Positions 21,087-61,301 of a stretch of 61,301 nt of DNA are shown piece by piece. The stretch is from Opitutales bacterium (lineage in GTDB: Bacteria > Verrucomicrobiota > Verrucomicrobiia > Opitutales > JAJFLR01). The notes under the pieces were generated by a model that saw only the letters and a program-made list of their open reading frames with translations, was not told the origin of the DNA and did no database searches. The first letter of the stretch is position 1; each line of letters starts with the position of its first letter. The translations under genes were made by a program, and so were the position numbers. The DNA is taken from assembly GCA_021772565.1 (NCBI GenBank), contig JAJFLR010000042.1:1-61301 (forward strand). Direction: 5' to 3'.

Positions 21087-21101
21087 TGTTTTTATTTAGC
21101 T

Positions 21102-30563: not shown

Positions 30564-31829
30564 ATGAATAAATTTTTTAATAGCCTTCGCTGCCTTATCT
30601 GCGGCAAAGAATATTCGCCTGATAAAGCACAATACATTTGTCCCGACCACAATCATGATGGAACGTTAGATGTAAACTATAATTACGATATTATTAAAAA
30701 AAAGATTGAACGAAAATCCCTGGAAAAAAATCCTGATTGTTCGATGTGGCGATATAAACCGTTATTGCCAATAGATGCTGCTTTAAACTTGTCCCTGTTA
30801 CGCGTTGGATGGACACCACTCTATAATTCAATTCGATTATCGGATAAATTAAATTTAAAAAGTGTTTGGATAAAAAACGAGGGACAGCAGCCGACCGGTT
30901 CGCTTAAAGACCGAGCCAGTGCACTAGCTATTTATAAAGCTCATGAAATAAAGGCAAACGTTATTGCTACTGCCAGTACCGGAAACGCCGGAGCAGCACT
31001 GAGTGGATTATGTGCCAGTGCAAATCAAAAAAATATTATCTTTCTACCTAAATCTGCACCCGCAGCAAAAATTGCCCAGTTACAAGTTTATGGCTCAACA
31101 ATCATTTTGGTTAATGGTTCATATGATGATGCCTTCAATTTATGTAGAAGCGCCTGTGAACTATACGGCTGGTATAATCGTAATACCGGATACAATCCCT
31201 ATATGACAGAAGGTAAAAAAACTGTCGCTCATGAAATTTGTGAGCAATTAAATTGGAATGTTCCTGACATTATTATAGTTAGTGTTGGCGATGGGTGTAT
31301 CATTGGTGCAGTACACAAAGGATTGAAGGATTTGCTCGCATTAGGCTGGATAAATAAGATGCCCCGTTTAATCGGAGTTCAAGCAGCCGGTAGTAATTAC
31401 CTCTCCCAAGCATGGGAGAATGATGAAGATCTACAAACAAAACCACCGATAAAAGCGAACACGATAGCCGACAGCATATCCGCCGGATTGCCGCGAGATC
31501 GCTTTAAAGCGATGAATGCTGTCAAGAATACTAACGGAATATTTGTAACTGTAACTGACGAAGAGATTTTATCGGCCATACCCGAATTGGCTAGGAACAG
31601 CGGGGTCTTTGCAGAACCTGCAGGCGCGGCTTCCTTTGCCGGATTAAAAAAATGTGTAGAAAAGAATATAATAACCTCCGACGAAAGTGTAGTCATAATA
31701 AATACCGGTAACGGCTTAAAGGATATTAAGAGCACTCAACAAGCAATCGATAAAATTAAATCAAACGCTCATAAAATATATCCCGATATCCGAGAGCTGA
31801 AAAACCTTGAAAAATTTTTGCCAAATTAA
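30564..31829 (+). CDS. threonine-synthase-like PLP enzyme, copy 2
   Basis: 421 residues, the same length as copy 1 and collinear with it. C10, C13, C26 and H29 of the zinc-ribbon-like start, the lysine in QQPTGSLKDRAS, STGNAGAALSG and AEPAGAASFAGL are all conserved. Differences are spread over the N-terminal 150 residues and the C-terminus, whereas a 39-codon block (31074-31190) is identical in DNA to copy 1. It seems functional although its racemase partner is broken. Keeping both copies intact suggests dosage or slightly different substrates. Confidence 0.82.
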   Translation: MNKFFNSLRCLICGKEYSPDKAQYICPDHNHDGTLDVNYNYDIIKKKIERKSLEKNPDCSMWRYKPLLPIDAALNLSLLRVGWTPLYNSIRLSDKLNLKSVWIKNEGQQPTGSLKDRASALAIYKAHEIKANVIATASTGNAGAALSGLCASANQKNIIFLPKSAPAAKIAQLQVYGSTIILVNGSYDDAFNLCRSACELYGWYNRNTGYNPYMTEGKKTVAHEICEQLNWNVPDIIIVSVGDGCIIGAVHKGLKDLLALGWINKMPRLIGVQAAGSNYLSQAWENDEDLQTKPPIKANTIADSISAGLPRDRFKAMNAVKNTNGIFVTVTDEEILSAIPELARNSGVFAEPAGAASFAGLKKCVEKNIITSDESVVIINTGNGLKDIKSTQQAIDKIKSNAHKIYPDIRELKNLEKFLPN

Positions 31830-31831
31830 CT

Positions 31832-32784
31832 ATGGCATCGATTGATCAATATCTGGCTAAAGAAATATCCCTCAAGCATCTTGAACTCCATTTGCTAAAT
31901 TTACCCGAGAAAGAATCATTTATTTCATCTCTGGGTAAAAGAAGTTCAAAACAAATTCTTATTATTAAGTGGATTGATAAAGACAACAATAACGGTTATG
32001 GAGAATGTTCATGCCGCACAGATCCTTACTATTCAGCCGAATTTGTTGATGCTTCCATTATTCTAATAAATTAGACGAAGTTTCTGTCGGAATATCTATT
32101 GGCATTCAAAAAAATAATGATGAATTGAAACAAATCGTAGAAACTGCCATTGATGATGGCTATAAACGTTTAAAATTTAAAGTTCATCCAAGCTATAAGT
32201 TGGACTTGGAATATCTATATCTTCTTTCACATAAAACCAAAATTAGTTTGGACGCAAATGGTTCTTTTGAATTTGAGGACTTTGAATATTTAAAAGAACT
32301 TTCTCAATTTAACACTGCCATAGAACAACCCTTTGCACTGCATCGAATTGATCTGGTAGAAAATGCCAAAGAACAAATTGAAAACTTCAAAATTTGCTAT
32401 GACGAAGAAGTCGAATGCCTCGGCGACTTGATGAAACTCGATCGACTAAAAATAATTGATGAGCTAAATATCAAACCGGGTAGAGTTGGTGGTATCTACA
32501 ACAGTATAAAAATAGCAGATTATTGTTTTGAAAAACAAATCCCCTGTTGGGTTGGCGGCATGTTTGAAACCGGCATTGGTCGGTCATTAAATCTATCTTT
32601 TGCATCACGACTATCTGGAAAAGCCATTCATGACCTGAGTCCACCATTGCGTTATTTCCAAGAAGATATTTTAAAAATTCCAATTTCTATGACTGATGGA
32701 TTCATTGATTCAAGTCATCTAGAAAATTCAAATGTAGACAGTGAACAATTAAATAAATATATAATCAATAATTTGAGTTATTAA
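31832..32784 (+). pseudogene. racemase/OSBS-like enolase-superfamily gene, copy 2, broken by a 172-bp deletion
   Basis: The first 80 codons (to VDASIILIN, stop TAG at 32072-32074) match copy 1. The next bases jump to the equivalent of codon ~138 (EVSVGISIG in a shifted frame), and the rest matches to the end of the barrel. Comparison with copy 1 shows TAAA at both deletion ends (21337-21340 and 21509-21512), so 172 bp were lost by microhomology. This removes part of the capping domain including AGIEAAMHDL and shifts the frame. The barrel half keeps its catalytic lysines and carboxylates and could restart at 32125 (219 codons), but without the cap it should be inactive. Confidence 0.9.
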
Positions 32785-33652: not shown

Positions 33653-36600
33653 TTAATTAACTTTTTTCATAAAAATTGATTCTATACCAACTAACACGTA
33701 ACCCTCAGTATCCAAAACCTCACCACTCATCATAGCATCTACTGAATTAAATTTAATCTTACTCACCTCTAGAAAACAGTTTTTACATAATTTATGAGTA
33801 TCAAAAACCGTTACTCCTTCAACACCTATCGGTAAAGTTTTAATTTTATAGGTTTCAGATGCAGCAATTCCAGCAAGTTGAAATAAAGCCTCAATAACTG
33901 TTACCAAGCGATCACCCATTATATTGCCACTATCTGATGCTAATTTATTTAAAGATAGGAATGTTTGATATTTCATTGAATCAGAATTAAACTCAACGTC
34001 ATTTAATAATTGGAAACGATGTCCATGAAAAAATCGCCCATCTGCATAGTACTTTTTTGCGTTGATTATTTTAGAAGAATTATATGAAACCCTACGTTTA
34101 GAACTTTCATGTACTAAGTCTAATTCTTCAAACTCGGCTTCGTAAATGATACTATTTGAGTACCCAACCGTAAACCTACTGTTTTTACCAGTGGAAAATG
34201 ATTTCATTTTCAAACTCGAACTTCCGTCTCTCGGGACAACACACGGATTTTTTATGGAGAATGATTTTAAAATAGTTTTCTCGGAATTTACTTTATCTGC
34301 AAACAACAATAATCCGGTTAACATATAAGATGCCGGCACATAACAAGTGCCATCGATTAAATGGTCTTCTAACCAATTATCTTTGGCTAAAGAAAAATTT
34401 CGTTCATAAGTAAAATCAGATACTGCACTACCAATAATCTTACCAATATTACCCATTGGAATTTGACGAGTTCGAAATGCCCAAATGTCTAAAGCGTCAC
34501 AAAGTAAAACAACTGGATGAGATTCATTAGACACTACCTCACTTAAAAATAATGCTTTAGCACTCTGCTCATCCAGCAATGAAATGAGTATTGATCTTAA
34601 TCTTTGCATGACTATCCGATTTTCAGTCATACCGACAGCATCCCATGGCGCCCAGACTAAACTCGTAATTTTAGTTTCGTGCTCTCGAAATTGATTTGAA
34701 AGTTGATCCAACCAGGCATTGGCATAAGCATAAATCGTTTGACCGAAATTACCAAAACTTCCTGCAATCGATGAAAACAGAAATATTTTTTTTGGTTTTA
34801 TTTTACCTATTAAATTGAGGATATAAGTAGTTGAGTTCAACTTTGTTTCGAGAACCGATGCAAAACTTTTGTCATCAATATTTTCAAATGACTCACTCAA
34901 CTCGATACCCAGTCCATTAACAACCACATCAACATGGCCAAAATTTTCCACCGCTTCATTTAAAATTAATTGAACGTTGTCTGATTTACGAAGATTTGTA
35001 GAAATATATTGGACATCTGGAATAAACTTTCGCAGCTCCTCTATATTAGATAATAAATCCGTATTATTATTTTTGGTTCGTCCGACTATTATAGCACGCC
35101 GACAAATTGATTTCTCTCCAGCCGCTTTCAACAATGAATGTGTGATTCCTCGTCCACCGCCCAAGACCAGCCAGTTTTCCTGTGTTTCCATCTTATCAAT
35201 TTTTTCTGTATGTTCAATTGCTACATACTCACCAATTTGTCGCATACCATTGATGATTCGGATATTGAAATTAAACGGTTGCTGCAATTCAGTTTGACAT
35301 AATTTATCGAGCTCATCCTTTGAACTTGGCAGTACATCAACGGATAGGTTGCGAAAAAATAATTCATTACTTTCCTGAGCTAACGTATAGAAAAATCCTG
35401 ACAACGCCTTCCATTTAACAGGTGCAAATTCGTCAACAATTAATATTAAATCGCACTTTCTCTTAATGATTTTTTTCCAAAGTAATTGATAATTAGTAAA
35501 AAAAACTTCAGCCCATTTGGCATCATTCCTAAAATCATCACCCCTATTGATATTTTCACCAATGATTCTAATTGATAACACTTCTTCCGTATCAACTAAT
35601 TCTATTTGATTTTGGAGTTCCAAAAAAAATTGTGCGATGTCTTCTGTAGCCTCTGGCAATCTGATTTCAATCCAATCCCTTGATTCAGTATTTTCATCAG
35701 ATATAATCTTATCTTCTATCCAGTTTAATGTAAGTCTAGCTGGTTCTCCCTTTCTTTCTAAAAATTCTTTAGGCCGCTCAACTTCAGTTTGCGGATCAGC
35801 TAGCAACTGACAAATATCTGCCAAACTTTTGATATCCGACATCGCTGTCGATGCTGACAGTTGTATCTTGTTTTCCTGTGCTACTGTAAATATCAATTCC
35901 GCCTTTTTTATGCTATCAATTCCCAGATCCTCCTGCAATCGATTCTGCATTTGAAAGGAAGTTATTTCGTATCCGGTTATAGAAGCGACTCTATTCAGTA
36001 GTTTCTGTAAAAAAGGATAATTCTTAAATTCTATTTCATTCTGCTGACTTTCAATACTTAAATCATAAGGAAATAATTTTTCAGTATCGAAAATTACTTT
36101 TGAACCATCACTAAAAATTTCACCGACAAATTTTGTCAAAGTTCCCTCAAAACTCATTTCCAAAAAGGAACCACATTGATTTTCAGTCGCTCTTAGAAGT
36201 TGATTCGGAAAATCAACTTTAGAGACCAACGATTTAGAAATAAGTTTAGCAATCCATTCTCGCGACGGTTTTACTCCAACATTATTCCAATCATCAACAA
36301 ATGAATATAACGGTAACGTTGCCGGAAATATTTCAAATTCCTTATCAATAATATTACCATAGGCCACTTTAGAGGCTTCTTCTAGCCATTGTGCGTGATA
36401 CGGTTGTGGAATTGTTTTTAGGGGTATTGCGCTAATCTTTTCATTTTTCAACAAACGAATAGTTGATTTTTCGAAACCCTTTTTAACAGCTATAACACAC
36501 TGTTTGGGGCTACATATATTAGCGATCACAATATCCTGATTTTCAGAAATTATATCTCCTACCCTCTCTGCATTTTCAGCAACTGCAATAAGTGATCCTG

Positions 36601-37072
36601 TTTGAAAAGGCTTGGGACAACCAAGATCTCTAAGATGTAATAGACTCAATAACGTCCTAAATGAAATAATACCCATTGCCACCAGAGCAACTGATTCACC
36701 AGCACTGAAGCCAATGCATCCTCTTGGTATTATACCTGAATTTTTAAAACAATCAAAAAGGCCCATCTCGATAACCGCCATGGCAATTATCGAAAGTATA
36801 GGTTGATCGTTACTTCTATTTTTACTTTGAAGCCAGGATGAAACTGATTGTATTCCTAGATCATCACAAAACTCATCTGCTATATTTAAATATTTTTGAA
36901 TCTCTTTAACTTTAGAAATTGCATTCCATTTTTTATAAGCAGGCAAACTTCCTTGTCCTGGAAAAAGCATTACAGGTTGGCTCGTATCAACACCTTCCCA
37001 TGATTTTAACTTTATTTGATAACTTCCGCAATAGTCACTTTTAATATTAATACATTCCATCTTCGTATCCAC
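33653..37072 (-). CDS. PUFA-synthase-like polyketide synthase subunit: AT-ACP-KR-DH
   Basis: A 1139-residue multidomain protein. An acyltransferase covers about residues 30-330 (LFPGQGS, with active S123 in GFSAGES). A single ACP lies around S387 in EDLGIDSIKKAEL. A ketoreductase spans about 640-850 (WLVLGGGRGITHSLL, NGLGIE, FSSIAGSFG, YAYANAW), and the C-terminus is a hot-dog dehydratase-like domain (about 920-1130; LEDHLIDGTCYVPASYM, FHGHRFQLL). The order resembles PfaA/HglE-type synthases of polyunsaturated fatty acids and heterocyst glycolipids, but with one ACP. It follows the KS gene by four bases. No enoylreductase or phosphopantetheinyl transferase is in the window. It probably builds a lipid or polyketide chain; the product is unknown. 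Confidence 0.85.
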   Translation of the reverse strand: MDTKMECINIKSDYCGSYQIKLKSWEGVDTSQPVMLFPGQGSLPAYKKWNAISKVKEIQKYLNIADEFCDDLGIQSVSSWLQSKNRSNDQPILSIIAMAVIEMGLFDCFKNSGIIPRGCIGFSAGESVALVAMGIISFRTLLSLLHLRDLGCPKPFQTGSLIAVAENAERVGDIISENQDIVIANICSPKQCVIAVKKGFEKSTIRLLKNEKISAIPLKTIPQPYHAQWLEEASKVAYGNIIDKEFEIFPATLPLYSFVDDWNNVGVKPSREWIAKLISKSLVSKVDFPNQLLRATENQCGSFLEMSFEGTLTKFVGEIFSDGSKVIFDTEKLFPYDLSIESQQNEIEFKNYPFLQKLLNRVASITGYEITSFQMQNRLQEDLGIDSIKKAELIFTVAQENKIQLSASTAMSDIKSLADICQLLADPQTEVERPKEFLERKGEPARLTLNWIEDKIISDENTESRDWIEIRLPEATEDIAQFFLELQNQIELVDTEEVLSIRIIGENINRGDDFRNDAKWAEVFFTNYQLLWKKIIKRKCDLILIVDEFAPVKWKALSGFFYTLAQESNELFFRNLSVDVLPSSKDELDKLCQTELQQPFNFNIRIINGMRQIGEYVAIEHTEKIDKMETQENWLVLGGGRGITHSLLKAAGEKSICRRAIIVGRTKNNNTDLLSNIEELRKFIPDVQYISTNLRKSDNVQLILNEAVENFGHVDVVVNGLGIELSESFENIDDKSFASVLETKLNSTTYILNLIGKIKPKKIFLFSSIAGSFGNFGQTIYAYANAWLDQLSNQFREHETKITSLVWAPWDAVGMTENRIVMQRLRSILISLLDEQSAKALFLSEVVSNESHPVVLLCDALDIWAFRTRQIPMGNIGKIIGSAVSDFTYERNFSLAKDNWLEDHLIDGTCYVPASYMLTGLLLFADKVNSEKTILKSFSIKNPCVVPRDGSSSLKMKSFSTGKNSRFTVGYSNSIIYEAEFEELDLVHESSKRRVSYNSSKIINAKKYYADGRFFHGHRFQLLNDVEFNSDSMKYQTFLSLNKLASDSGNIMGDRLVTVIEALFQLAGIAASETYKIKTLPIGVEGVTVFDTHKLCKNCFLEVSKIKFNSVDAMMSGEVLDTEGYVLVGIESIFMKKVN

Positions 37073-37076
37073 TTAA

Positions 37077-39125
37077 TTACCCGTGTTGAATTACTTCAAA
37101 AATTGATGCCTTAACAGGCAATCCCAATTGTAATACAGTTTTTTCATCACCGATCAATATAGCACGTAACCCATGACGTTTTACTTTTCTAAATTTAGAA
37201 TCATAATTTCCTTTTTCTGCTAACAATAAAACTAGTCCCGGCTCAATAGTAAGATTTGCTTGAATCAAACGCAGTGCCACAGGTAATGAAGCGTGTTCCG
37301 CATCAAAATTAAAGTTTGCACCTTGAATATTGAAATAATTACAAACGCGTCCGGCGATAACATTATTTAACATACTAGCACCAATATCTTCATTCGGTGC
37401 TAAATGGTGTTCACGGCAAGCAGCAACTTTTTTTGAAATTGACTCATCCAATTCCCTCAAGCTTTCTTCTATTTCGGAGTAAATTGATCTAAACGAAAAT
37501 TGTCTGGCCCTATCCAAGGTCGTACAAGAAGCAGAAACAACTCTCAATTTCTTAAAATCAATATTTTTTGCTAACGGACCTAACTCTGATATTAAATTCA
37601 TTACAACTTGCAGCGCTGTCCTCTGAAGGTCATCCATATACAAAAATATTTGTTTCGGTAAACGGAATTTTTCACAATCCTCAGCATTAAACTTCAATAA
37701 CGGTTCTTCAACTATCTTACTTATAACACAATTTCTAAATTTATTAAGTTCTGATTTTTGAGTATTATTAATTTTTGCTCTACCCTCATTTGAATTTTGT
37801 TGCTTACTCAACAGACAATGATAATTGATACCGCCAAATCCGAATGAGGATACGCCGAACAAAGCATCCGACTCAGTTTTTATTGTTTGAGTTAATATTC
37901 GATCAGTTGTTGCATATTTGTTTACAGAATGAATCTCACCTTCCTGCATAGCTGCTAGTATACGAAGAATACCAATTGCACCAGCGGCTCCTTTTGTGTG
38001 ACCGAATATAAATTTTGCAGATCCAAAGCTAGTCTTGTTATTGGTAAAGTATTTCGATAAAGATCGTATTTCTGTCTCATCACCAACTTGAGTACCTGTA
38101 CCATGAGCCTCAATATATTGAACGTTATTTTTATCTGCATTTAAATAACACCGCTCATAGGCCAATAGCTGGCCGTCGACTGATGGTTGAAAAATTCCAC
38201 TACCAGCCCCATCACTGGAACTACCGATACCCCGAATCACTCCATATATTTTATCGCTGTTTGCTTCGGCGTCATCTAACCTTTTTAGTTCGTATAATAC
38301 GGCCCCTTCACCTTGTGAAAGTCCGGTTGCAGGATTATCAAATGGACGACTCGCTTTTTCTGCAAGAGCACTCAGTCGAGCAAAAGTAATAAATGATTCC
38401 GGACTCAGATTTGCTTCTACTCCGCCTGATATTACAACATCTGCAGAACCACCCTGCAATAAAATGCAAGACTGCTCAATTGCTGCCAACGATGATGCAC
38501 AAGCAGCATCCACTAACCCACCAAATATTTTTTCTCTTTTTAAGTAACGACGTATAAGATCAATTATCGATGCCGATAACACATCACGTTTGACACGATC
38601 AACAGATAGATTTATTCCGCTATGATCTTGCTTAATACGATTGATTGCTTCTTCTTTTAGGTTACTGCTCTCGTTCGCTATCGACTCGATGATCGCCTCC
38701 TGTTCTTCAGCCCAAAAGACCGTATCCCTTTCTCTCTCATCACAGTTCATGCCGCCTATCAATACTGCATATTTTGAGTCATCAATAGCTGCGTTCAACG
38801 AATGATCAATTTGATCCAGCGCAGCCAGAGTAAGAAGTTCCAAGCGATTTAGATCAGTTCCTAAATCTGAAAAGCGCTTGCATAAAGTATTGATCCGCTC
38901 TTCATTAATCGTAGCTCCGTAATGAGTATAAGTTGAATCAGGTGGTGCATCCAGACCTTTCTTATTGGACATATAAATCTCCCCCGGACTGCGCTTGGAA
39001 GAAATTTGTTGAATTTGAGTTTCACCATTTTCAATTAGCTTCCTAAAAGAATTAAAGTTTTCTGCTCCAGGCAAATAACAGCCTAAACCGGTAATCGCAA
39101 TAGGTTGAAATTGATCTATCCTCAT
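37077..39125 (-). CDS. PUFA-synthase-like ketosynthase with second, inactive KS-like domain
   Basis: 682 residues from the ATG at 39125. This start leaves a 19-base gap after the ABC permease, whereas a longer frame from 39167 would overlap it. Residues 5-450 form a complete ketosynthase: ITGLGCYLPGA, nucleophile C209 in DAACASSL, EAHGTGTQVGD and FGHTKGAAGA. Residues ~500-640 look like a truncated second KS (VIAGRVCNYFNIQGANF followed by DAEHASLPVA), where the nucleophile Cys position is His, as in chain-length-factor domains of PfaC-type proteins. Its partner with AT-ACP-KR-DH follows immediately. Context with a MacB exporter suggests an exported or envelope lipid product. Confidence 0.85.
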   Translation of the reverse strand: MRIDQFQPIAITGLGCYLPGAENFNSFRKLIENGETQIQQISSKRSPGEIYMSNKKGLDAPPDSTYTHYGATINEERINTLCKRFSDLGTDLNRLELLTLAALDQIDHSLNAAIDDSKYAVLIGGMNCDERERDTVFWAEEQEAIIESIANESSNLKEEAINRIKQDHSGINLSVDRVKRDVLSASIIDLIRRYLKREKIFGGLVDAACASSLAAIEQSCILLQGGSADVVISGGVEANLSPESFITFARLSALAEKASRPFDNPATGLSQGEGAVLYELKRLDDAEANSDKIYGVIRGIGSSSDGAGSGIFQPSVDGQLLAYERCYLNADKNNVQYIEAHGTGTQVGDETEIRSLSKYFTNNKTSFGSAKFIFGHTKGAAGAIGILRILAAMQEGEIHSVNKYATTDRILTQTIKTESDALFGVSSFGFGGINYHCLLSKQQNSNEGRAKINNTQKSELNKFRNCVISKIVEEPLLKFNAEDCEKFRLPKQIFLYMDDLQRTALQVVMNLISELGPLAKNIDFKKLRVVSASCTTLDRARQFSFRSIYSEIEESLRELDESISKKVAACREHHLAPNEDIGASMLNNVIAGRVCNYFNIQGANFNFDAEHASLPVALRLIQANLTIEPGLVLLLAEKGNYDSKFRKVKRHGLRAILIGDEKTVLQLGLPVKASIFEVIQHG

Positions 39126-39144
39126 TATATTCAAAAATCTTTTA

Positions 39145-40323
39145 CTACGATCCGCGAATACAGTCAATAACGTCTAACCGTGCAGCTTGTCGAGCCGGAT
39201 AGAAACCAAAAAACAGACCGACTACAGAAGAAACAATCACGCCAATGAGTATAGCATTTCCCGAAATAAAAAATTCCCAGTCAGATGCCCTGGCAACAAA
39301 ATAAGAGGATAGTACTCCAAAAATAACACCCAATAGTCCTCCCAATAAACAGAGGACAATTGCCTCAACCAAGAACTGTGATTGCACTTCACTTTGACGT
39401 GCGCCAATTGCACGGCGAATTCCTATTTCAACTTTACGCTCACTCACTGAAACCAGCATAACGTTCATCACACCGACACCACCAACGAGTAAAAATATCG
39501 ATCCTATCGCTGCCAACATCAGGGTAAACATTTTCGACTGTTTTTCCATCTGCTTGATTATTGCTTCGGCGGTTTCAACTTCAGTGCGAATATTGTCCAA
39601 TTGAGATTTATAATAGTTATCAATTTCCTCACGTAGCAAATCCGTTTGCCCGGGCTTATTATTTCTGGCATGCACAACAGCGATAGATTTATTGCCACTT
39701 ATACGACCAGCAGCCTGCATGGGAATTAGAAAAGCAGTGTTGGCATCAAATCCCATTATACCCCCTTCCGGCATTCTAGCCAAAGTTCCAATGATTGTAT
39801 AAATACGTTTATCAATCCGAATTTGCTCTCCTATTAATTGCTCCGGACCATACTGCCTCAATTCGTCTGCTACGTTAGCTCCGATAACACAATATTGCGA
39901 ATTACCATCTGCATCAGAAATAAATCGTCCTTCCTCAACAGTTAGACGATGCACCTGTGCAAGTGATGAGTTTACACCATACATTTGAGTATCAATTTTT
40001 TTTCCACGATAAATCGGTTCGCCAAACGCCTCGACAATAGGTGCTGCCATACTGATCATTTCAACTTCATTTTCCATACCATTTACATGTGAGTCGGTCA
40101 CAACAGGAAATCTACCAGCATCAGAATTTTCCGGATAAAAATTTATTAACAAAAAGTCTGTTCCGAGTGCTTCAAACTGTTTCATCGCCTCTCTCTCGAC
40201 AAGGGAACCAACTGATATAAGAGCAATGACAGATGCGATACCAATGGTAATTCCCAACAACGCCAGTAGTGTACGCTGCTTTGACGACCACAAACTGTGT
40301 ACTGCTTCTTTAAATGTGTTCAT
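39145..40323 (-). CDS. MacB/FtsX-type ABC transporter permease
   Basis: A 392-residue permease. The first helix (LLALLGITIGIASVIALISV) is followed by a large periplasmic MacB-type domain (about 45-260), then three helices of the FtsX domain. The conserved MNVMLVSVSERKVEIGIRRA loop lies between the second and third helices. It would work with the ATPase encoded upstream, coupling ATP hydrolysis to extrusion of a substrate from the periplasmic side through an adaptor and outer-membrane channel. It precedes the KS gene by 19 bases, so exporter and polyketide synthase are probably one operon. The adaptor and channel genes of this operon are deleted. Confidence 0.9.
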   Translation of the reverse strand: MNTFKEAVHSLWSSKQRTLLALLGITIGIASVIALISVGSLVEREAMKQFEALGTDFLLINFYPENSDAGRFPVVTDSHVNGMENEVEMISMAAPIVEAFGEPIYRGKKIDTQMYGVNSSLAQVHRLTVEEGRFISDADGNSQYCVIGANVADELRQYGPEQLIGEQIRIDKRIYTIIGTLARMPEGGIMGFDANTAFLIPMQAAGRISGNKSIAVVHARNNKPGQTDLLREEIDNYYKSQLDNIRTEVETAEAIIKQMEKQSKMFTLMLAAIGSIFLLVGGVGVMNVMLVSVSERKVEIGIRRAIGARQSEVQSQFLVEAIVLCLLGGLLGVIFGVLSSYFVARASDWEFFISGNAILIGVIVSSVVGLFFGFYPARQAARLDVIDCIRGS

Positions 40324-40430
40324 ATATCACGTATTCAATAGATAAAACTTTCCAACCCAAAAAATAGGTTCTCGTATCAGTGACCATAATCATAACCATC
40401 ACCAAAATTGATTGAAAATTATTAAAAAAT

Positions 40431-40510
40431 TGTAGGGCCTTCGCTTGCGAAGCGCCTCTTCGAGCATGCCATGTCCTCTTACGAGGCATCGAGCAAGCTC
40501 GAGCCCTACA
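40431..40510. repeat. 80-bp palindromic element with TGTAGGGC/GCCCTACA ends
   Basis: The element begins TGTAGGGCC and ends GCCCTACA (8-bp terminal inverted repeats). It contains two internal hairpins, CTTCGCTTGCGAAG and CGAGCAAGCTCG. Its left 27-28 bases recur in inverse orientation at 61219-61246. It sits in the 292-base gap between the ATPase and permease genes, which in most MacB operons is absent, so it looks like an insertion into the operon. Confidence 0.75.
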
Positions 40511-40615
40511 GTAAAGAATCGACCTAACCCAAGCCCTACCATTATGAAACCATCGCAGTACATTTTTATAAAATCGATTTTGCTTCGACGCGACATATAT
40601 TTAATTTCAGATTTA

Positions 40616-41314
40616 TTACGGTTCATTCTTATAATTTTCAGCCGGTAAAATTTTTCCATCTTTCATACGAATTTGTCGCTTACACTGACGAGCCACATTG
40701 GCATCGTGAGTGATAATAACAACCGTTATTTTTTCTTCTTCATTCAAACGAATAAACGTATCTAAAATATCCTGCCCCACTCTTGAATCAAGTGCACCTG
40801 TTGGTTCATCGGCCAAAATTAGTGATGGGTTTCCAACCAGAGCCCGAGCAATCGCAACTCTTTGTTGCTGTCCACCGGAAAGTTCCTTTGGCTTGTGATG
40901 TAAGTGTTCACCCATACCAACTTTTTCTAAATACTCAATAGCCCGATTACGCCGATCACGAGTGCTGACTTTTTGATAGGTCAATGGTAATGCGACATTA
41001 TTGACAATATCGAGTTTTGGCAGCAGATAAAATTGTTGAAAAACAAAACCAATTTTCCTTCCTCGAATAATAGATAAACGATTATCATCTGCTGCGAGAA
41101 CACTCTCGTCTTCAAACATGTATTGGCCTTCATCAGGTTTATCCAACAGACCCAAGATATTCATCAGTGTAGATTTTCCACAGCCGGATGTGCCCATTAA
41201 CGAAACCATTTCTCCGGGAAATATTTCCATCGAAATATTTTTCAGCACCGGCAGTTTTACCGGCCCAAGGTAGTAAGATTTAAAAAGGTTTTCTATTTTT
41301 ATAACTGAACTCAT
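40616..41314 (-). CDS. MacB/LolD-type ABC transporter ATPase
   Basis: A 232-residue ABC ATPase with Walker A GTSGCGKST, Q-loop FVFQQFYLLP, signature LSGGQQQRV, Walker B LILADEPTGALD and the switch His in VVIITHD. The subfamily (LolD/MacB/FtsE) energises FtsX-type permeases that move substrates or mechanical force across the envelope. Its ATG overlaps by four bases (ATGA) with the stop of the decayed adaptor gene, preserving the original operon junction. Confidence 0.95.
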   Translation of the reverse strand: MSSVIKIENLFKSYYLGPVKLPVLKNISMEIFPGEMVSLMGTSGCGKSTLMNILGLLDKPDEGQYMFEDESVLAADDNRLSIIRGRKIGFVFQQFYLLPKLDIVNNVALPLTYQKVSTRDRRNRAIEYLEKVGMGEHLHHKPKELSGGQQQRVAIARALVGNPSLILADEPTGALDSRVGQDILDTFIRLNEEEKITVVIITHDANVARQCKRQIRMKDGKILPAENYKNEP

Positions 41315-41405
41315 GGAATCAAATAACCGGGGACAACTTGATCACCCTCTTTTAAACCAGATCGAATTTCAATTCCTTCAAGTGTAGCTTTAATTCTGTT
41401 GAGAC
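41311..41405 (-). pseudogene. 3' remnant of the HlyD/MacA-type adaptor gene
   Basis: In a frame different from the TolC-like ORF, the minus strand reads NRIKATLEGIEIRSGLKEGD followed by QVVPGYLIP and TGA overlapping the ATPase start. The IEIRSGLKEGDQVV pattern is typical of the very end of membrane-fusion adaptor proteins. Only about 30 codons remain. Everything upstream has been replaced by the 5' half of a TolC-like gene. Confidence 0.75.
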
Positions 41406-42107
41406 TAGAGAACGAAATAGACTGAGTGCGTTAGTAATAATATCGGATATAGACGATTCAAGTTGTAACAAATTTTGTTGCTCGTTAATTTTAGCAATTC
41501 GATTTGATAAAGTTGAGGCTCCAGGTCCACCTCGGAGCAATGGCTGACTTATGGAAATATTCCAATTTGCATCCCATTCAGGACGGAGAGTCGGATCGAG
41601 AGTCTGGGGACTTATTTCTGAATTTCTTCTGGATGCAGCATAGGAAACACCGACATTGGCACCAGTAGGTAAGCGCCAAGTGAGCGAAGGGCCGACTGAA
41701 GCGGATTCAGATTGGCGGGTTACTGAATTAGCAACTGTGGCATCTCGATTCCAGGAATTTTGAGAATTTGCTGAAAAATTGATGTCCGGAATAAACTCGT
41801 CCATCGCGACATCGAATAAAGTTCTCTGATCGACTCTACCCAATTTTGTCAGCAATGACGTAAGCGAGTATTTGATTGCGTAGTTGACAGCCTTTCGTTC
41901 ATCCAAAACAAATTCTGATTTATTTTTTTTTGAACCGATCAATTCATCTAATTCTTTTTCAAAAGTTTTACGCCTTTGCTCAATAGTACTTGCAAGTAAA
42001 ATATCGATTACCTGTTTTTCATTTTGGGTACTACGCTCTTCATTTTGCGCAAATGTTACAGACAAACAGAATTGGGAAATTAAAAATAGTATGGTTAGTC
42101 TAATCAC
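41352..42107 (-). pseudogene. 5' half of a TolC-type outer-membrane efflux protein, truncated by deletion
   Basis: The 251-codon frame has a signal peptide (cleavage near TFAQ, about residue 21) and outer-membrane efflux sequence (LDERKAVNYAIKYS, GPSLTWRLPTGANVGVSYAA, WNISISQPLLRGGP, IAKINEQQNLLQ). A TolC protein normally has over 400 residues with two similar halves. Here it ends about where the first helical hairpin would continue (NALSLFRSLVSTE), then runs out of frame through the adaptor remnant. A single deletion fusing tolC-like and adaptor genes explains both. The transporter must borrow these parts from elsewhere or be inactive. Confidence 0.8.
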
Positions 42108-42499: not shown

Positions 42500-42952
42500 A
42501 TGTCCCAATCATTAAGCAATATTATAGTCCATATCGTATTCAGTACTAAAGACCGGTTCCCATTTATTGATAAAAATATACGCCATAAATTACACGCATA
42601 TATTTCAACAATTTGTCGAAACCAAAATGCCTATACGCATCGCATAGGGGGTGTTGCCGATCATATTCATATTGCTACAGTTTTACCGAGGACTAAAACA
42701 GTGAGTAAACTAGTCGAAGTCGTAAAAAGAGATTCATCAATCTGGATAAAGAAACAAAATTGTCATTATGAAAAATTTTATTGGCAAAAAGGTTACAGTG
42801 CATTTTCAGTGAGCCATTCGCAACTAGAGATATTGATTAAATACATTGAGAATCAAGAAAAGCATCATCGAAAGTTAACCTTTCAAGATGAATATCGAAA
42901 ATTTCTAAATAAGTACAAGGTTGAATTTGATGAGAAGTATATCTGGGATTAA
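42500..42952 (+). CDS. IS200-like/REP-associated tyrosine transposase
   Basis: A 150-residue Y1 HUH transposase. The metal-binding pair is H55 and H57 in GVADHIHIAT. The catalytic Tyr is Y115 in LIKYIENQ with Q119 four residues on, the spacing known from IS200/IS605 TnpA. Such enzymes cut single-stranded DNA at hairpins and join it 5'-phosphotyrosine first. Length and motifs are complete, so it may be active. No TnpB partner is nearby. The duplicated hairpin arrays on both sides are its likely substrates. Confidence 0.92.
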   Translation: MSQSLSNIIVHIVFSTKDRFPFIDKNIRHKLHAYISTICRNQNAYTHRIGGVADHIHIATVLPRTKTVSKLVEVVKRDSSIWIKKQNCHYEKFYWQKGYSAFSVSHSQLEILIKYIENQEKHHRKLTFQDEYRKFLNKYKVEFDEKYIWD

Positions 42953-45812: not shown

Positions 45813-47534
45813 TCATTCTTCCAATTTAGGATAATCAATTTCTCCTCCTTTATGAATTTTGAGTTGTGGAAATGGAATATCCCAGCCATGTTTGTTAGCT
45901 GCTTCCAATGCCAACTGCTGCAACTTCCAGTGTATTTCAGTCCACTCCGATGCAGCTTCACCAGAAAATCTGCCAATTGTTATAATTCCTAAAGATGAGT
46001 CATCGAGAACTTTTAGTTCAATAATTAATTTAACCAAATACTTCCCATAAAATTCTTTTTTGATATCCTCTTCCATACTCGCCCTTAACTTATTAATTAT
46101 ATCATGGTTGACGATATATCTGTACTTGTAATCAATATTGAAAATTACCGGACAAGCAAATGTATTGATAGTAAGATTTCTCGGACTCTTTTTCAAAAAC
46201 TCACTTACAGTATATGTTTGAAAGCTCCCTCTTACCGTACTGACAGTCACATGCTCTGGTGTTTGAGCAACAATCTCACCATAAACACCATCGCCCATAA
46301 TAACCCAATCTTTCAATCGCGTGGGAAACCATGCTTCATTTTCATCGTAAGGACGGGAGCGCATGTCAATTAAATCTTTCAATGGAAGTCGAACGGATCC
46401 ACCAGTAAGCAGTGGATTTACAAGTTCCGTAAAAAGATTCATCGATTCAACTTTAAATGGCACCCCATTATAAATTAATCGTTCCCCCTCTCTAACAGCA
46501 CCTAGATCAAGTAATAATTTTGCCTGTTCAAAATAACTCGGAAGTGCATTTTTCAATGTCCAAAGTAAGGCAAATATGATAATAATCACTATACCGAGAA
46601 GCACCCAATCGGCTGACATATAGAGAACAATCATTAAACCAGAGAGTGAGGCAGCTATAGTAAATACATAATAGAAGACATCCATTAATCTAATATAGAA
46701 CTGATGCTTCTTGTTTTTATAAATTGAAACTTTTTTACGAATAATGCGATGGATAAAACGAAGTGAGAAAAATATAGCTAACGTTGCACTTAATGATAAA
46801 ATTAAATTTCTTCCTCTACTACGAAAGAATATTCGTAAAACTTCCTGTGCCGTATTGCCGATACTTTTCTTGGCATTTTCCTTTTCATCCAACTGAAGTT
46901 TTACTGCATTATATTTACCGGTAAACTCCTGCTCTTGTTGCTTCCAATATTTATTGAGTTTATTAAGTTCATCACGAAGTTTCTGACTTTGTGCTGACCG
47001 GCTGAGTATATCAATATCCTTGATTGCTTCGTTTAGCTTAGGTCTTCTTGATTCAAAGTAACTCAACTCATTACGCAGTCTTTCAATTTCTCTCGGTTCC
47101 TCGGTGAGGCTTTTTAATTCAGAAAGAATCGGTGCAATCAAAACATTAACTTCGTCTTGCCACACAGCACCCTCTTTAGGTTCTTCAAAAAATTCATCCG
47201 GATCTAAACCGGTAGCAATAATTGTAAACTGAACCTGCAATTCACTCAAACGTCCATTAAGCTCTTTTATCTCACCAGAAATCTTAGATTTTTGTTCTTG
47301 AGTATCAACATATTTATGCCTTTCTTCCAGTTGCTGTATTTGCAGGTTGATGACTTGAATTGACTCTAACATGCTATTAAGAGTCGCAATTTTTCCTTTT
47401 ATTTGAGCAAAAACATGTTTCCCCCCGCCATTTGAACCACCATTTTCTTGTCCCAAAAGAGAATAAGAAAAACAAAGTGCCAAGATCAGAAATCCGAAAA
47501 GAGTCCTAAAGCAATCACGTCTATAGTTTTTCAC
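45813..47534 (-). CDS. MscS-type mechanosensitive channel-like protein with coiled-coil N-terminus
   Basis: A 573-residue protein with a signal peptide (to about residue 28, SLLGQ) and a coiled-coil periplasmic part (about 35-215, many Glu/Leu/Lys heptads). Four hydrophobic helices follow (about 235-330), then an MscS-like beta-domain (REGERLIYNGVPFKVESMN ... DWVIMGDGVYGEIV, HVTVSTVRGS). The pore helix lacks the classic Gly/Ala zipper of MscS, so conduction is less certain. The upstream gene ends ten bases before it, and both are probably one operon. Confidence 0.75.
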   Translation of the reverse strand: MKNYRRDCFRTLFGFLILALCFSYSLLGQENGGSNGGGKHVFAQIKGKIATLNSMLESIQVINLQIQQLEERHKYVDTQEQKSKISGEIKELNGRLSELQVQFTIIATGLDPDEFFEEPKEGAVWQDEVNVLIAPILSELKSLTEEPREIERLRNELSYFESRRPKLNEAIKDIDILSRSAQSQKLRDELNKLNKYWKQQEQEFTGKYNAVKLQLDEKENAKKSIGNTAQEVLRIFFRSRGRNLILSLSATLAIFFSLRFIHRIIRKKVSIYKNKKHQFYIRLMDVFYYVFTIAASLSGLMIVLYMSADWVLLGIVIIIIFALLWTLKNALPSYFEQAKLLLDLGAVREGERLIYNGVPFKVESMNLFTELVNPLLTGGSVRLPLKDLIDMRSRPYDENEAWFPTRLKDWVIMGDGVYGEIVAQTPEHVTVSTVRGSFQTYTVSEFLKKSPRNLTINTFACPVIFNIDYKYRYIVNHDIINKLRASMEEDIKKEFYGKYLVKLIIELKVLDDSSLGIITIGRFSGEAASEWTEIHWKLQQLALEAANKHGWDIPFPQLKIHKGGEIDYPKLEE

Positions 47535-47544
47535 TAAAGTTAAA

Positions 47545-48237
47545 TTATTTAGAAGGTTTAATCTCTTTATTAGTATTAGTTTTAGCCGGTTTTTTCAGCA
47601 ACTTATTAACGATTCTGATTAGTTTAGATTCTTCCGCGCTCCCGCTTAGTTTTTGATTAGTAGAAACCTTTTCTAAATCGCGTGAATTTATTTTGATTGT
47701 TTCATTAATTTCTGTTCCCAAATATTTTACGCCAATTTGAGTAAGAAAAATTAATATTTTTCGATCATCAAATACTTCATTGGTAATAAATTGTACTTTG
47801 GTATCCCAAACTTTTGAAAATTCTATGTTTTTGTTATAATGGATTTTGTTATTGTAACCAAAAATTTCTAAAACATGAATAAACTGACTCTCTCCTTTTA
47901 ATTCTTCAGATCCCTCTTCTTTTGTTGTACTGTATTTCCAGTCAATTACTAAATCTGATTTCCATTTATCTTCTTCCAATCCTTTATTTATAATTAAATC
48001 TTTTAATTTTCTACTCACACGATTTGAGATGATAATATCAGTATGACGATAATCCAAGACAATTTCATTATTATTTATTTTAAACTTCTTGGCTGAGAAA
48101 GTTTCATCGGCTAAACTCGTTAGAAATAATCGAAAGTCTGTTAAACCTTTTGATTCTGCAACAAGGCCGAGCAATAATGATTGCAATGCTATTATAAGCA
48201 CTAATTTTAAGAGACTATTATTTTTGTTCATTTTCAT
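47545..48237 (-). CDS. secreted protein of unknown family in operon with the MscS-like gene
   Basis: 230 residues. It has a signal peptide (LLKLVLIIALQSLLLGLVA, about residues 9-27), then a mixed alpha/beta region (ADETFSAKKFKINNNEIVLD; DLVIDWKYSTTKE; KVQFITNEVF) and a Lys-rich end (KKPAKTNTNKEIKPSK). I do not recognise a domain. The ten-base gap to the channel-like gene suggests the two function together at the envelope. Confidence 0.6.
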   Translation of the reverse strand: MKMNKNNSLLKLVLIIALQSLLLGLVAESKGLTDFRLFLTSLADETFSAKKFKINNNEIVLDYRHTDIIISNRVSRKLKDLIINKGLEEDKWKSDLVIDWKYSTTKEEGSEELKGESQFIHVLEIFGYNNKIHYNKNIEFSKVWDTKVQFITNEVFDDRKILIFLTQIGVKYLGTEINETIKINSRDLEKVSTNQKLSGSAEESKLIRIVNKLLKKPAKTNTNKEIKPSK

Positions 48238-48356
48238 ATTTGTTATCTTTAATATTATATTATCAGGAATCCATTTTTTGCTGATACTGTAAATTTACTG
48301 TGAAGTTTACAAGATTTTTTACTGAGGAATTCTATATTGGCTAATATAAATCAGGC

Positions 48357-51300
48357 TTATAAATCAGGCTTAATGTGTTTTAGCTCATCTGAAAAACTTT
48401 CCCCATGATGCCCTTGAAACCATTTATAAAATGCAGGTATCAAAAGAAGCGTCAACAAAGTAGAACTAATAAGCCCACCAGTTACTACCAATGCAAGAGG
48501 CTTTTGTACTTCGCTACCTGTACCTGTTGCCAGCAATAATGGTAACAGACCAAGACCCGTTGTAATTGCTGTCATTAAAACAGGACGCAACCTCCGACAT
48601 GCTGCTTCAACAGAAGCTTGATTTACATCCATGCCATTTTTACATAATTGGTTTGTAAATGTGATCAGCACTAAACCATTTCCCAATGCTATTCCAAATA
48701 ACGCTATAAATCCTACCGTTGCCGGAACAGAAAGATTTTCACCGCTTAACCAAAGTGCAGTAATTCCACCGACCATGGCTAACGGAATGTTTAATATGAT
48801 TAAAATTGAATTCCTGAACGATCCCAAAGCAGCATAAATCATAATAAAAATGAGTAACAGTGTGAGAGGAATTACTACGGCAAATCGCTTGTTTGCCTCT
48901 TGTTGGAGTTTATAAGATCCACCCCATGTTGTAAGATAACCGGTTGGCAGATCAACATTTTCAATTATCTCAACCTTTGCCTCTTTAACAAAACTACCAA
49001 TGTCGCGGCCGGAAACATTGCATTGAATAGCAACGAAACGTTGACTGTGTTCTCGGGTTATCTGTCTTGGTCCAACAACCTCTTCAATTGTTGCAACTTC
49101 TCTCAAGGGTATTAAAATCCCGTCAACATTACGGATAATAATTTCTCGAATTGATGCTGCAGAATCACGATAAGATTCAGTATAACGTACAAGAATTTTA
49201 TAACGACGAATACCTTCAAAGATTTCACCTACTTCAGATCCGCCAATACCTGACTTTATAACACGTTGTATATCACTAACGTTCAAGTTATAACGCGTTG
49301 CTGCATCACGATCAATGTGAATAAGCAGTTGTGGCGTGCCAACAACTTGATCAACCTGCACATCCCGTGCACCGTTAACTTTTCCCAAAACTCCGGCAAT
49401 TTTATCAGCATTTTCAAGAAGCAACTCTAGATCTTCACCAAAAAGTTTTACAGCCAACTCGGCCTGTACTCCTTCCAATAATTCATCAACCGACATTTCA
49501 ATCGGTTGAGTAAAGTTGACAATTACACCCGGTGGTTCGCCGATAGCATTGCGTACATCCTCTACCATCTGCTCTTGATCAAAGGGAACTCTCCATTCCT
49601 CTGCAGGTGTCATAATTAGAAAAAGTTCTGCAGAATTAATAGGATCAGCATGAGCACCGACCTCACCACGACCAATACGCGTTACTACCTTTGTCACTTC
49701 AGGCACTTTAAGAATTCGAGATTCAATAACCTGTGTCATATGCCTGGAAGTATTTATCGAAATAGACGGTGCCATTTTTAATTTTACTACAATAGTACCC
49801 TCATTAAGTTTGGGAGTAAACTCTGTGCCAAGCTTTGGAAATATCCAAAAACCCAGACCTAATAATAAAACAGAAACAATTACAGCTAACCATCGTTGTC
49901 TGACCATAAATGTAACAATCGGTCGGTAAGGATATTGAAGCATGCGAACAATAAAATTTTCTTTAATTTCTCTCTCCGCAGTATCACTTAATTTCTGTTT
50001 TGGCTTTTTCATGAAGTAATAAGCAAGAGTAGGCGCAATAATGAGCGAATAAACCAGAGCCCCACTCATGGCCAAGGCAATGGTTTGGGCAAGAGGAGTA
50101 AAAGTTTTACCTTCGACACCGGACAATGTAAAAAGAGGTATGAAGACAATTATAATAATTGAAACTGCAAAGCCAACGGGACGTGCCACTTCAGTGCATG
50201 ATTTTACTAATATTGACAGTTTCGACTCATTTGAATCGGAATTTCGTAGATGTTGATCAACATTATCAACCACAACAATAGCTCCATCAACTAACATGCC
50301 AATCGCAATAGCCAATCCACCTAGCGACATCAGGTTTGCTGAAATGCCAAAATAATACATCCCGAGTGTAGCAAATAGTAATGAAAAAGGTAACGCCAAT
50401 GAAACAACTATCGTGGGACGGAACCCACCCATAAAAACCACAAGCACAATCGCAACAAGTAATATCCCCTGAGTCAGAGCCGATGTCACAGTAGCAATTG
50501 CTGCATCAACTAAAGTCTTTTGTTCGTAGTATGGGACAATATGCACTCCTTCAGGAAGACTTCGATTTATTTCAGCAATCTTGTTTTCAACTGATTTAAT
50601 GACGGTCGAAGCATTAGTACCAAAAAGTTTGATAACTTGTCCGGCGATGACTTCAGACTTACCATCTTTGGTTTGTAGTCCGCGCCGAACTGCCACACCT
50701 TCGTAAACTTTTGCAACGTTTCCTAACAATATGGGAATTCCATCATTACTTGCCAATAAAATTGATCGTATATCTTCTACGGTTGTAACCAGCCCGACTG
50801 AGCGAACAACATATTCCTCGTTATTACTTTCAATAAATTGAGCACCGACATTAAGATTATTTTTTTCGATTCGCTCAATAACATCAATAACTGTAAATCC
50901 ATAATGTTCGAGTGCAATTGGGTCAACTTCGACAATAAATTGTTTTTCAAAGCCGCCAATTCCAAGAACCTCGGTTACACCGGGAACATTTTGCAAATTA
51001 AACTTTATTACCCAATCCTGAATAGATCGAAGTTCAGTTAGAGAATATTGCCCTGTTGTATCTTCCAAATAATAGAAAAGCACCAGACCCATACCTGTAG
51101 AAATCGGACCCATTCCCGGTTCGCCAAACCCATCGGGTATTGCCTCTCTTGCCTCATTCAATCTTTCACTGACCAATTGGCGACAAAAGTAAATATCCAT
51201 TTTATCTTCGAAATATATATTCACAACTGATAAGCCAAAATTTGAAATTGATCTGACATTAGTAACGCCTGGTAAGCCACTCATTGATGCCTCAACCGGA

Positions 51301-51497
51301 AAGGTAACAAATTTTTCAATTTCCTCAGGAGCAAGACCTTCAGTCTCAGTAAAGACTTGAACAAGATTGGGAGATACATCAGGAAAAGCATCAACTGGAA
51401 GTTTGTCATAGGCCCAATACCCCGCCCCCATCAATAGCAGGGAAAGTGTGATAACTAATAACCGTGAGTGAAGAGAAAATTCAATAAGTTTTTTCAT
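48357..51497 (-). CDS. heavy-metal RND efflux pump (CusA/CzcA family)
   Basis: A 1046-residue inner-membrane pump with the RND layout of twelve helices and two large periplasmic loops. The start LPVDAFPDVSPNLVQVFTE is diagnostic of the heavy-metal branch. Helix 4 carries LAIAIGMLVDGAIVVVDN, whose conserved acidic residue carries protons. The pattern is closer to Cus-type than to the DFG-type Czc pumps, so Cu/Ag or a divalent metal is likely. It is third in a CusC-CusB-CusA-ordered operon. A 13-bp tandem duplication (AAGCCTGATTTAT twice, minus strand) spans the stop codon. Confidence 0.93.
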   Translation of the reverse strand: MKKLIEFSLHSRLLVITLSLLLMGAGYWAYDKLPVDAFPDVSPNLVQVFTETEGLAPEEIEKFVTFPVEASMSGLPGVTNVRSISNFGLSVVNIYFEDKMDIYFCRQLVSERLNEAREAIPDGFGEPGMGPISTGMGLVLFYYLEDTTGQYSLTELRSIQDWVIKFNLQNVPGVTEVLGIGGFEKQFIVEVDPIALEHYGFTVIDVIERIEKNNLNVGAQFIESNNEEYVVRSVGLVTTVEDIRSILLASNDGIPILLGNVAKVYEGVAVRRGLQTKDGKSEVIAGQVIKLFGTNASTVIKSVENKIAEINRSLPEGVHIVPYYEQKTLVDAAIATVTSALTQGILLVAIVLVVFMGGFRPTIVVSLALPFSLLFATLGMYYFGISANLMSLGGLAIAIGMLVDGAIVVVDNVDQHLRNSDSNESKLSILVKSCTEVARPVGFAVSIIIIVFIPLFTLSGVEGKTFTPLAQTIALAMSGALVYSLIIAPTLAYYFMKKPKQKLSDTAEREIKENFIVRMLQYPYRPIVTFMVRQRWLAVIVSVLLLGLGFWIFPKLGTEFTPKLNEGTIVVKLKMAPSISINTSRHMTQVIESRILKVPEVTKVVTRIGRGEVGAHADPINSAELFLIMTPAEEWRVPFDQEQMVEDVRNAIGEPPGVIVNFTQPIEMSVDELLEGVQAELAVKLFGEDLELLLENADKIAGVLGKVNGARDVQVDQVVGTPQLLIHIDRDAATRYNLNVSDIQRVIKSGIGGSEVGEIFEGIRRYKILVRYTESYRDSAASIREIIIRNVDGILIPLREVATIEEVVGPRQITREHSQRFVAIQCNVSGRDIGSFVKEAKVEIIENVDLPTGYLTTWGGSYKLQQEANKRFAVVIPLTLLLIFIMIYAALGSFRNSILIILNIPLAMVGGITALWLSGENLSVPATVGFIALFGIALGNGLVLITFTNQLCKNGMDVNQASVEAACRRLRPVLMTAITTGLGLLPLLLATGTGSEVQKPLALVVTGGLISSTLLTLLLIPAFYKWFQGHHGESFSDELKHIKPDL

Positions 51498-51514
51498 TAT
51501 ATAAATTCCTTAAA

Positions 51515-52648
51515 TTAGTGTGCATGGCCATCGCCAAAATTTTCTTTTTGTAGATCGGCTTTTAGAAAAAATCCCCCTTGCGTAACATACGGCACTCCGG
51601 ACTTGAGACCGTTACGAATTTCTACATTGTAACTATCTTTCTTACCAACCGTTACTTCTGCTGCTTTAAAACCATCACCGGCTTCCTCCTTCACAAAAAT
51701 AACTTTTTTATTTTCTATTGTATGCAACGCAGACAGAGGCACTACAACAGGATAATTTTTTTTACTTAAAATCACATTACCTGTAACAAAAGTACCTGGT
51801 CGAAAGATGCCTGAAGAATTTTTTAATAAAACACGTGCTAATCCAGTACGGCCAGTCTCATTTATAGTCGATCCAATATAGTTTATTTTACCTTCAATAG
51901 ACGGATAGTTTTCTCCTGCCGTAATTATAACTTTTTGCCCCATCTGAAACTGTGGTAAATCACGTTGATAAACTTTTAGATCAGCCCAAACAGTTGATGT
52001 ATCCACTATGGTATAAGCAATTTTTCCCATCTCTAAATTTTCACCAGGTGCAATGTGAACTTGAACAATGGTGCCATCAATCGGGGCATTGAGTTCAAAT
52101 GCTACAAGTGTTTGAATACTTTCCATTCCAGCTAATAAATCACCCACTCGCACATTATCACCCAGTCGTTTGTGAATTGCTTTGACCACTCCATCAAAGC
52201 GTGGACTAACGTGTGCAATTGAGTTTTCATTCATCTGAATTTCACCTAACAATTTCAACTCATCAACAATCACCCCGGATTTTGATTCGCTTATCTGTAT
52301 ATTAAAATCACGAATATCATCTACAGATAAATGGACGAGACCAGCATGTTCGTCATGATTCTCATCACCATGGTCGTTGTGATCATTCTGGTTCGTCTTG
52401 CGTTGCTCATCTTTACTATGACCTTCATGGTCTTTGTCCTTCCCGAGATCATCTTGGTCTTTGTCCTTATCATGCACGTCACTATGATTGTCCTTACTAT
52501 GTTTGTCATAATAATCGTGATCCTTAAACATGCCAGTTTCACCATTGCTAGTAGCAATATTTAAAAACACTGCAGATAGAAATATACTTAGTGTTAAATA
52601 ATATTTTTTGAGTCTTAGAACTAATCGAAATTTGTTTAAAATATTCAT
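51515..52648 (-). CDS. RND efflux adaptor (CusB/CzcB-like) with His/Asp-rich N-terminus
   Basis: A 377-residue membrane-fusion protein. A signal anchor (about 15-35) precedes a strikingly His/Asp/Lys-rich stretch from residue 40 to ~102 (for example DHDYYDKHSKD, NDHNDHGDENHDEHAG). Then follow the barrel, lipoyl-like halves (NENSIAHVSPRFDGVVKAIH; LLAGMESIQTLVAFELNAP) and membrane-proximal domains, ending GDGHAH. The His-rich extension probably binds metal in the periplasm and hands it to the pump, as proposed for other CzcB-like proteins. It lies 17 bases before the pump gene and 8 after the channel gene. Confidence 0.92.
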   Translation of the reverse strand: MNILNKFRLVLRLKKYYLTLSIFLSAVFLNIATSNGETGMFKDHDYYDKHSKDNHSDVHDKDKDQDDLGKDKDHEGHSKDEQRKTNQNDHNDHGDENHDEHAGLVHLSVDDIRDFNIQISESKSGVIVDELKLLGEIQMNENSIAHVSPRFDGVVKAIHKRLGDNVRVGDLLAGMESIQTLVAFELNAPIDGTIVQVHIAPGENLEMGKIAYTIVDTSTVWADLKVYQRDLPQFQMGQKVIITAGENYPSIEGKINYIGSTINETGRTGLARVLLKNSSGIFRPGTFVTGNVILSKKNYPVVVPLSALHTIENKKVIFVKEEAGDGFKAAEVTVGKKDSYNVEIRNGLKSGVPYVTQGGFFLKADLQKENFGDGHAH

Positions 52649-60976: not shown

Positions 60977-61218
60977 ATTTTAAATTATGAGCAAATTAAG
61001 GTTATATATTATCAGATTCTAATAAAAACTCCTCAGCTTAATATTATAGTTCAATCTCATAAAGCTTATCAATGTCTCGAAAGGCTAAGAATAATCAATT
61101 TTACTATAAGCATGTTCAGCTAAATTTAAAAAGACCCAACAGTTGATGACGAATCTATATGCTTTAAGCGAAGGCTGTTGCTGAATGCCTTGTAAAAAGA
61201 CTTGGGCTGGAAAGAGAA

Positions 61219-61246: not shown

Positions 61247-61301
61247 TTTCTTGATCTTTATTAATCGTAATTGGACGAAATTAATTCTTGTCACAGAAGA
61301 G

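Follow-up and report, generated by a model that had tools for sequence, protein, structure and literature searches.

Polyunsaturated fatty acid (PUFA) and secondary lipid synthases (PfaA-PfaD; types A-T of Shulse and Allen 2011, PMC3098273) are the described systems most like the locus analysed here. In PfaC, PfaBC and HglC, the slot after the active ketosynthase (KS) holds a chain-length factor (CLF) (PMC3098273), and gammaproteobacterial PfaB carries a short inactive KS (KS') directly ahead of its acyltransferase (AT) (PMC12895367). We analysed a two-protein polyketide synthase (PKS) that follows exporter genes in a 61,301-nucleotide stretch of DNA from an uncultured Opitutales bacterium (contig JAJFLR010000042.1 of assembly GCA_021772565.1), hereafter the window, which is contig 61 of a genome assembly of 3.57 Mb in 124 contigs that is 95% complete. 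Our preferred reading, with a probability of about 0.55, is that the locus encodes a reduced, split Pfa-type synthase without an enoylreductase (ER), which would still be functional and lies beside a decayed exporter. It is an odd variant of the PUFA-synthase-like enzymes and not an intact make-and-export system.

With PUFA and secondary lipid synthases, the window proteins share the KS-CLF position pair, a malonyl AT, a Pfa-type acyl carrier protein (ACP), a ketoreductase (KR) and a dehydratase (DH), but they are split after KS', have one ACP instead of several, and keep only a fragment at the CLF position; no ER was found in them and no PfaD in the genome. The single-chain synthase of Desulfobotulus alkaliphilus (L173, 3772 amino acids (aa)) has the same linear order as the window, KS-KS'-AT-ACP-KR-DH, and differs in being one chain with an N-terminal ER, several ACPs and a full-length second KS. 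PfaB resembles the window in its short KS' ahead of the AT, whereas the window AT is of the PfaA malonyl type. Enediyne PKSs (PKSE) have the same KS-AT-ACP-KR-DH order, from which the window proteins are set apart by another ACP motif, by the absence of a C-terminal phosphopantetheinyl transferase (PPTase) domain by Pfam, and by the lack of a match to an accessory gene in a genome search for DUF1702.

The synthase comprises two proteins with the following parts:

37077..39167, minus strand: KS-KS' protein, 696 aa (Pfam KS, class profiles, catalytic residues and AlphaFold2 (AF2) model; TTG start set by the open reading frame (ORF) caller, first ATG at 39126)
about 39107-37788, minus strand: KS domain (Pfam, above cut-off)
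about 37679-37077, minus strand: KS' fragment (KS-profile match)
33653..37072, minus strand: AT-ACP-KR-DH protein, 1139 aa, GTG start (Pfam, class profiles and catalytic residues)

Both ORFs were open throughout with no internal stop, and Pfam detected KS, ACP, KR and DH above their cut-offs, while the AT (E 1e-6) fell below its own. The KS retained Cys223, His355, His390 and Lys385; the AT retained Ser123, Arg148 and His226, of which the Arg is malonyl-binding; and the KR retained Lys744, Ser768, Tyr781 and Asn785. In the DH, His904 was kept and the partner position was Glu, as in homologues from Heimdallarchaeota. The ACP signature DLGIDSIK is the Pfa ACP motif, and the aligned enediyne ACPs read DLHxNSI. 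The KS kept 34 of the 38 columns invariant in 13 reference KSs, against a 30% match to the majority residue in variable columns, and the AT-ACP-KR-DH protein kept 47/79, against 20% elsewhere; these invariant-column figures are upper estimates, because the alignment itself favours agreement at conserved columns. No frameshift was detected in any synthase domain, and a compensated frameshift in an odd stretch ahead of the KS cysteine was ruled out, with no KS motif found in the other frames. The open frames and retained catalytic residues argue for constraint over most of the history of the synthase.

The second KS is far less complete. About 145 recognisable residues match KS-profile positions 81-227 of 516, with both ends gone; the profile score of KS' was 52 bits, that of the KS 282 (PfaC_KS). 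The active-site segment of KS' is DAEHAS, as against DAACAS in active KSs; His thus replaces Cys. The domain half in which both catalytic histidines would lie is missing. Judged from its sequence and place, KS' occupies the CLF position; it would be non-catalytic and would serve the KS as a structural partner at most. The AF2 model of the KS-KS' protein was best matched by the PfaC KS-CLF didomain (PDB 6riw; TM 0.70, other KSs reaching about 0.5), the closest structural match although the window KS' is much shorter; the input alignment held KS-CLF rows, which biases the model toward 6riw, and the KS' part was of low to moderate confidence. KS' alone found nothing relevant in the PDB by sequence. 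The model of the AT-ACP-KR-DH protein (pLDDT 58, pTM 0.37) was too poor and was left unused.

Class profiles made for KS, AT, KR and DH from Pfa-type, enediyne and modular synthases placed most of the protein pair with the Pfa type; the profile sets were unequal in size, so that bit differences are indications and not statistics. For the KS, the PfaC-type profile gave 282 bits and the PfaA-type profile 246, followed by enediyne (225) and modular (about 203, in two pieces). The KR gave 134 bits for PfaA, 110 for enediyne and 79 for modular, and the AT gave 86 for PfaA, 68 for modular, 45 for enediyne and 38 for PfaBC-type. On these AT scores, a PfaB identity for the KS'-AT segment was rejected, the AT being of the malonyl PfaA type. 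Neither protein reached the TIGR02813 PfaA equivalog cut-off (170 and 115 bits against 1010), and a canonical PUFA synthase would differ from this one in its tandem ACPs (a single ACP was found here) and in PfaD. By the KS, AT and KR profiles together with the ACP motif, assignment as a strongly diverged Pfa-type synthase holds up.

The original prediction, made from the letters of the DNA, had described a two-protein PUFA-synthase-like PKS with a His in the second KS, a single ACP and no ER, and had proposed searching for PfaD and a PPTase. The two-protein PKS is real in that both ORFs are uninterrupted and their domains were found, although the second KS, correctly credited with its His, is a fragment and not a whole domain. 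Pfam found one ACP, as claimed. No ER was detected in either protein, the PfaD model TIGR02814 had no match in the genome, and one PPTase is encoded elsewhere in it. The PUFA-synthase-like architecture agrees with the KS, AT and KR profiles, the ACP motif and the PPTase, but the KS tree gives no proof of it. A quick tree grouped the window KS with enediyne and PfaA-like KSs (SH-aLRT 98), away from modular KSs; joining the KS to the modular or enediyne KSs was nevertheless not rejected by approximately unbiased (AU) tests. The KS phylogeny is compatible with a Pfa assignment without proving it.

From these domains, a working cycle can be proposed. The AT would load malonyl onto the ACP, the KS would condense, and the KR and DH would act in each cycle. 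Iterative KS-KR-DH synthases without an ER are expected to yield a conjugated polyene or a partly hydroxylated chain. The synthase is probably iterative and, because the KR-DH cycle has no ER, its product would be a conjugated polyene or partly hydroxylated acyl chain, released by another enzyme. A trans-acting ER may contribute; the genome gave only two weak matches to the nitronate-monooxygenase family. We put forward tentatively the more specific reading that this two-protein Pfa-type synthase, minimal in its single ACP, its KS' fragment and its lack of an ER, works, makes a conjugated polyene lipid and was kept while the exporter decayed.

Five minus-strand genes stand in series at the locus: a TolC-like fragment, an ABC ATPase, a MacB-type permease, the KS-KS' gene and the AT-ACP-KR-DH gene. 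The exporter part contains the following features:

41352..42107, minus strand: N-terminal fragment of a TolC/OEP protein, 251 aa (Pfam OEP; alignment with L063, a relative of 538 aa, over its residues 43-237)
41311..41391, minus strand: remnant like the C-terminus of a MacA-type adaptor, TLEGIEIRSGLKEGDQVVPGYLIP then stop (frame translation, inspection)
40616..41314, minus strand: ABC ATPase of MacB/LolD type, 232 aa, intact (domain matches)
40410..40510, no strand assigned: dispersed repeat copy between the ATPase and permease genes (41 genome matches of intergenic DNA)
39145..40323, minus strand: MacB-type ABC permease, 392 aa, intact (MacB_PCD and FtsX domains; full-length relatives in the order)

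The adaptor remnant amounts to about the last 26 codons, lies in a frame other than that of TolC, and has a stop that overlaps the start of the ATPase. By eye, TLEGIEIRSGLKEGDQVVPGYLIP resembles the adaptor C-termini of relatives; searches with this short tail alone gave no match, and the assignment is by inspection and gene order. Among relatives of the same order, an adaptor-like gene, ATPase and permease stand in series in six operons, and in four of the six a gene of 531-615 aa, that of L063 being one, precedes the adaptor-like gene. Compared with these TolC-MacA-MacB exporters, the window has the same ATPase, permease and gene order but no adaptor, a halved TolC and an inserted repeat. 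The ATPase and permease would derive from an operon of this type, through a deletion that removed the C-terminal half of TolC and nearly all of the adaptor. The simplest reading of the junction is a single deletion from mid-tolC to the end of macA. An assembly error at that point may also account for it. A MacA-MacB-TolC tripartite set is thus incomplete in the operon, with the adaptor missing and TolC cut, and because of these deletions and the repeat between ATPase and permease it would no longer be a self-contained exporter. An adaptor may be borrowed from elsewhere, as other membrane-fusion proteins are encoded in the genome.

The 20-base core of the repeat recurs at 61225, and the repeat is also present at 61178-61266. 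An IS200-like single-domain transposase lies at 42500-42952, close to palindromes; the transposase and the dispersed repeat may form a REP/RAYT-like pair. Elsewhere in the window (45813-52648), an AcrB-type transporter and an HlyD-type adaptor are encoded on one strand; two ORFs next to them have no Pfam match.

Spacing within the series is uneven. Measured to its first ATG, the KS gene lies 18 bases from the permease stop; the TTG start chosen by the ORF caller would run into the permease gene. Between the two synthase genes there are 4 bases. Tight operon spacing is restricted to the permease, KS and AT genes, because 292 bases with a genome-wide repeat part the ATPase from the permease. The near-contiguity of permease, KS and AT genes in the original prediction was thereby borne out. 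Its MacB exporter survives as an intact ATPase and permease, with the outer-membrane gene cut to 251 aa and the adaptor to about 26 codons, and its view of synthesis and export as one operon keeps the contiguous genes but is weakened by the loss of the adaptor and of one half of TolC. That the synthase and the exporter work together is unproven.

The same prediction had pointed to an adjoining diaminopropionate (Dap) cluster and, from it, to an acylated amino-acid lipid. The relevant genes are these:

17618-18616, opposite strand to the synthase: SbnA (NCBIfam, above cut-off)
18654-19688, opposite strand to the synthase: SbnB (NCBIfam, above cut-off)
19821-22232, no strand assigned: threonine-synthase-like and MenC-like genes, following SbnA/SbnB
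30564-32784, opposite strand to the synthase: second copy of the threonine-synthase-like and MenC-like genes, 80% identical to the first

SbnA and SbnB are the pair for 2,3-diaminopropionate. The genes that adjoin the synthase belong to the second copy, in which the MenC-like gene is broken, having suffered an internal deletion and a frame change. The adjacency behind the acylated amino-acid idea is that of a decayed duplicate, because 30564-32784 copies the genes at 19821-22232. With SbnA/SbnB some 14 kb off, on the other strand and with that duplicate between, neither the adjacency nor an acylated diaminopropionate lipid found support.

Elsewhere in the phylum, standard clusters combine PfaA (KS-AT-ACP-KR-DH) with PfaBC-like proteins (L193, L194, L196). 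Three contigs from metagenome-assembled genomes (MAGs) of Heimdallarchaeota (L066, L067, L105) bear PUFA-synthase-like genes, contamination being possible; the longest, in L066, encodes a 3376-aa ER-KS-AT-KS'-ACP-KR-DH protein. A Verrucomicrobia groundwater MAG (L043/L069, G133) has an enediyne-type cassette, with a PKS that ends in a C-terminal PPTase-like part and UnbU-, UnbV- and DUF1702-like genes, and a Myxococcales MAG (L130) has an enediyne-like PKS in two ORFs, KS and AT-KR-DH-PPTase, which may be a natural split or a frameshift. The window genome itself encodes two further large PKSs, of 4039 aa and 2136 aa (KS-AT-DH-ER-KR-ACP), on contigs C69 and C42.

Several results weigh against a functional Pfa-type synthase. 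Close relatives of either synthase protein were absent from the 52 genomes of the relatives set, 286 of the class and 388 of the phylum, which gave distant matches or none; these sets held no further members of the family of the window genome. Likewise, no close relative turned up when 84,980 species were scanned with patterns from the window protein alone; a second scan used patterns common to an enediyne PKS and is biased to that class. The DH was weak and the enediyne profile came out slightly ahead (27 against 18 bits for PfaA, with a PfaA-DH set of n=3). A careful tree, enlarged by further Pfa references, left the KS unplaced, on an end branch of 2.8 changes/site against a median of 0.4. 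AU tests, run for the two joins after mislabelled or non-KS CLF/PfaC rows of the careful tree had been dropped, gave p 0.19 for modular and p 0.34 for enediyne KSs. Substrate, product and iteration, moreover, are inferred.

As the main rival reading, the locus might instead be moribund: a larger Pfa-type cluster and its exporter would have lost the ER, the extra ACPs, most of the CLF, the adaptor and half of TolC, and the ORFs would be open because decay is recent. The deletion across TolC and the adaptor, the repeat between ATPase and permease, the broken duplicate next door, the very long KS branch and the fragmentary KS' all fit this account. We nonetheless regard it as rather unlikely, since 1139 and 696 codons are free of stops and frameshifts and catalytic residues persist despite low overall identity. 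The opposite proposal, of an intact synthesis-export unit that draws its adaptor and TolC from elsewhere and possibly makes a diaminopropionate acyl amino acid, can call on the nearly contiguous permease, KS and AT genes on one strand, the intact ATPase and permease, and the further membrane-fusion proteins of the genome. It appears improbable given that the operon has lost the adaptor and TolC of its own and that SbnA/SbnB stand apart behind the decayed duplicate.

Descent from an enediyne-type polyene PKS that shed its cassette has the identical KS-AT-ACP-KR-DH order to recommend it; the nearest architecture in the class is the enediyne PKS of G133 with UnbU, UnbV and DUF1702, the AU test leaves such an origin unrejected, and the DH profile leans slightly that way. 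The Pfa motif of the ACP, the missing C-terminal PPTase domain and the preference of the AT and KR profiles for PfaA speak for a different origin, as does the absence of a DUF1702 match in the genome (a search that, of the three cassette genes, covered DUF1702 and had no positive control), and we give this origin very little credence. The reduced Pfa-type synthase beside a decayed exporter is thus the reading that we retain.

If functional, this synthase would show how far a Pfa-type synthase can be reduced, to one ACP and a partial CLF without an ER, and the contributions of KS' and of tandem ACPs could be tested in a compact system. If moribund, it would exemplify how a lipid cluster and its exporter decay step by step. 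In both cases, the picture of synthase and exporter as one working unit is corrected.

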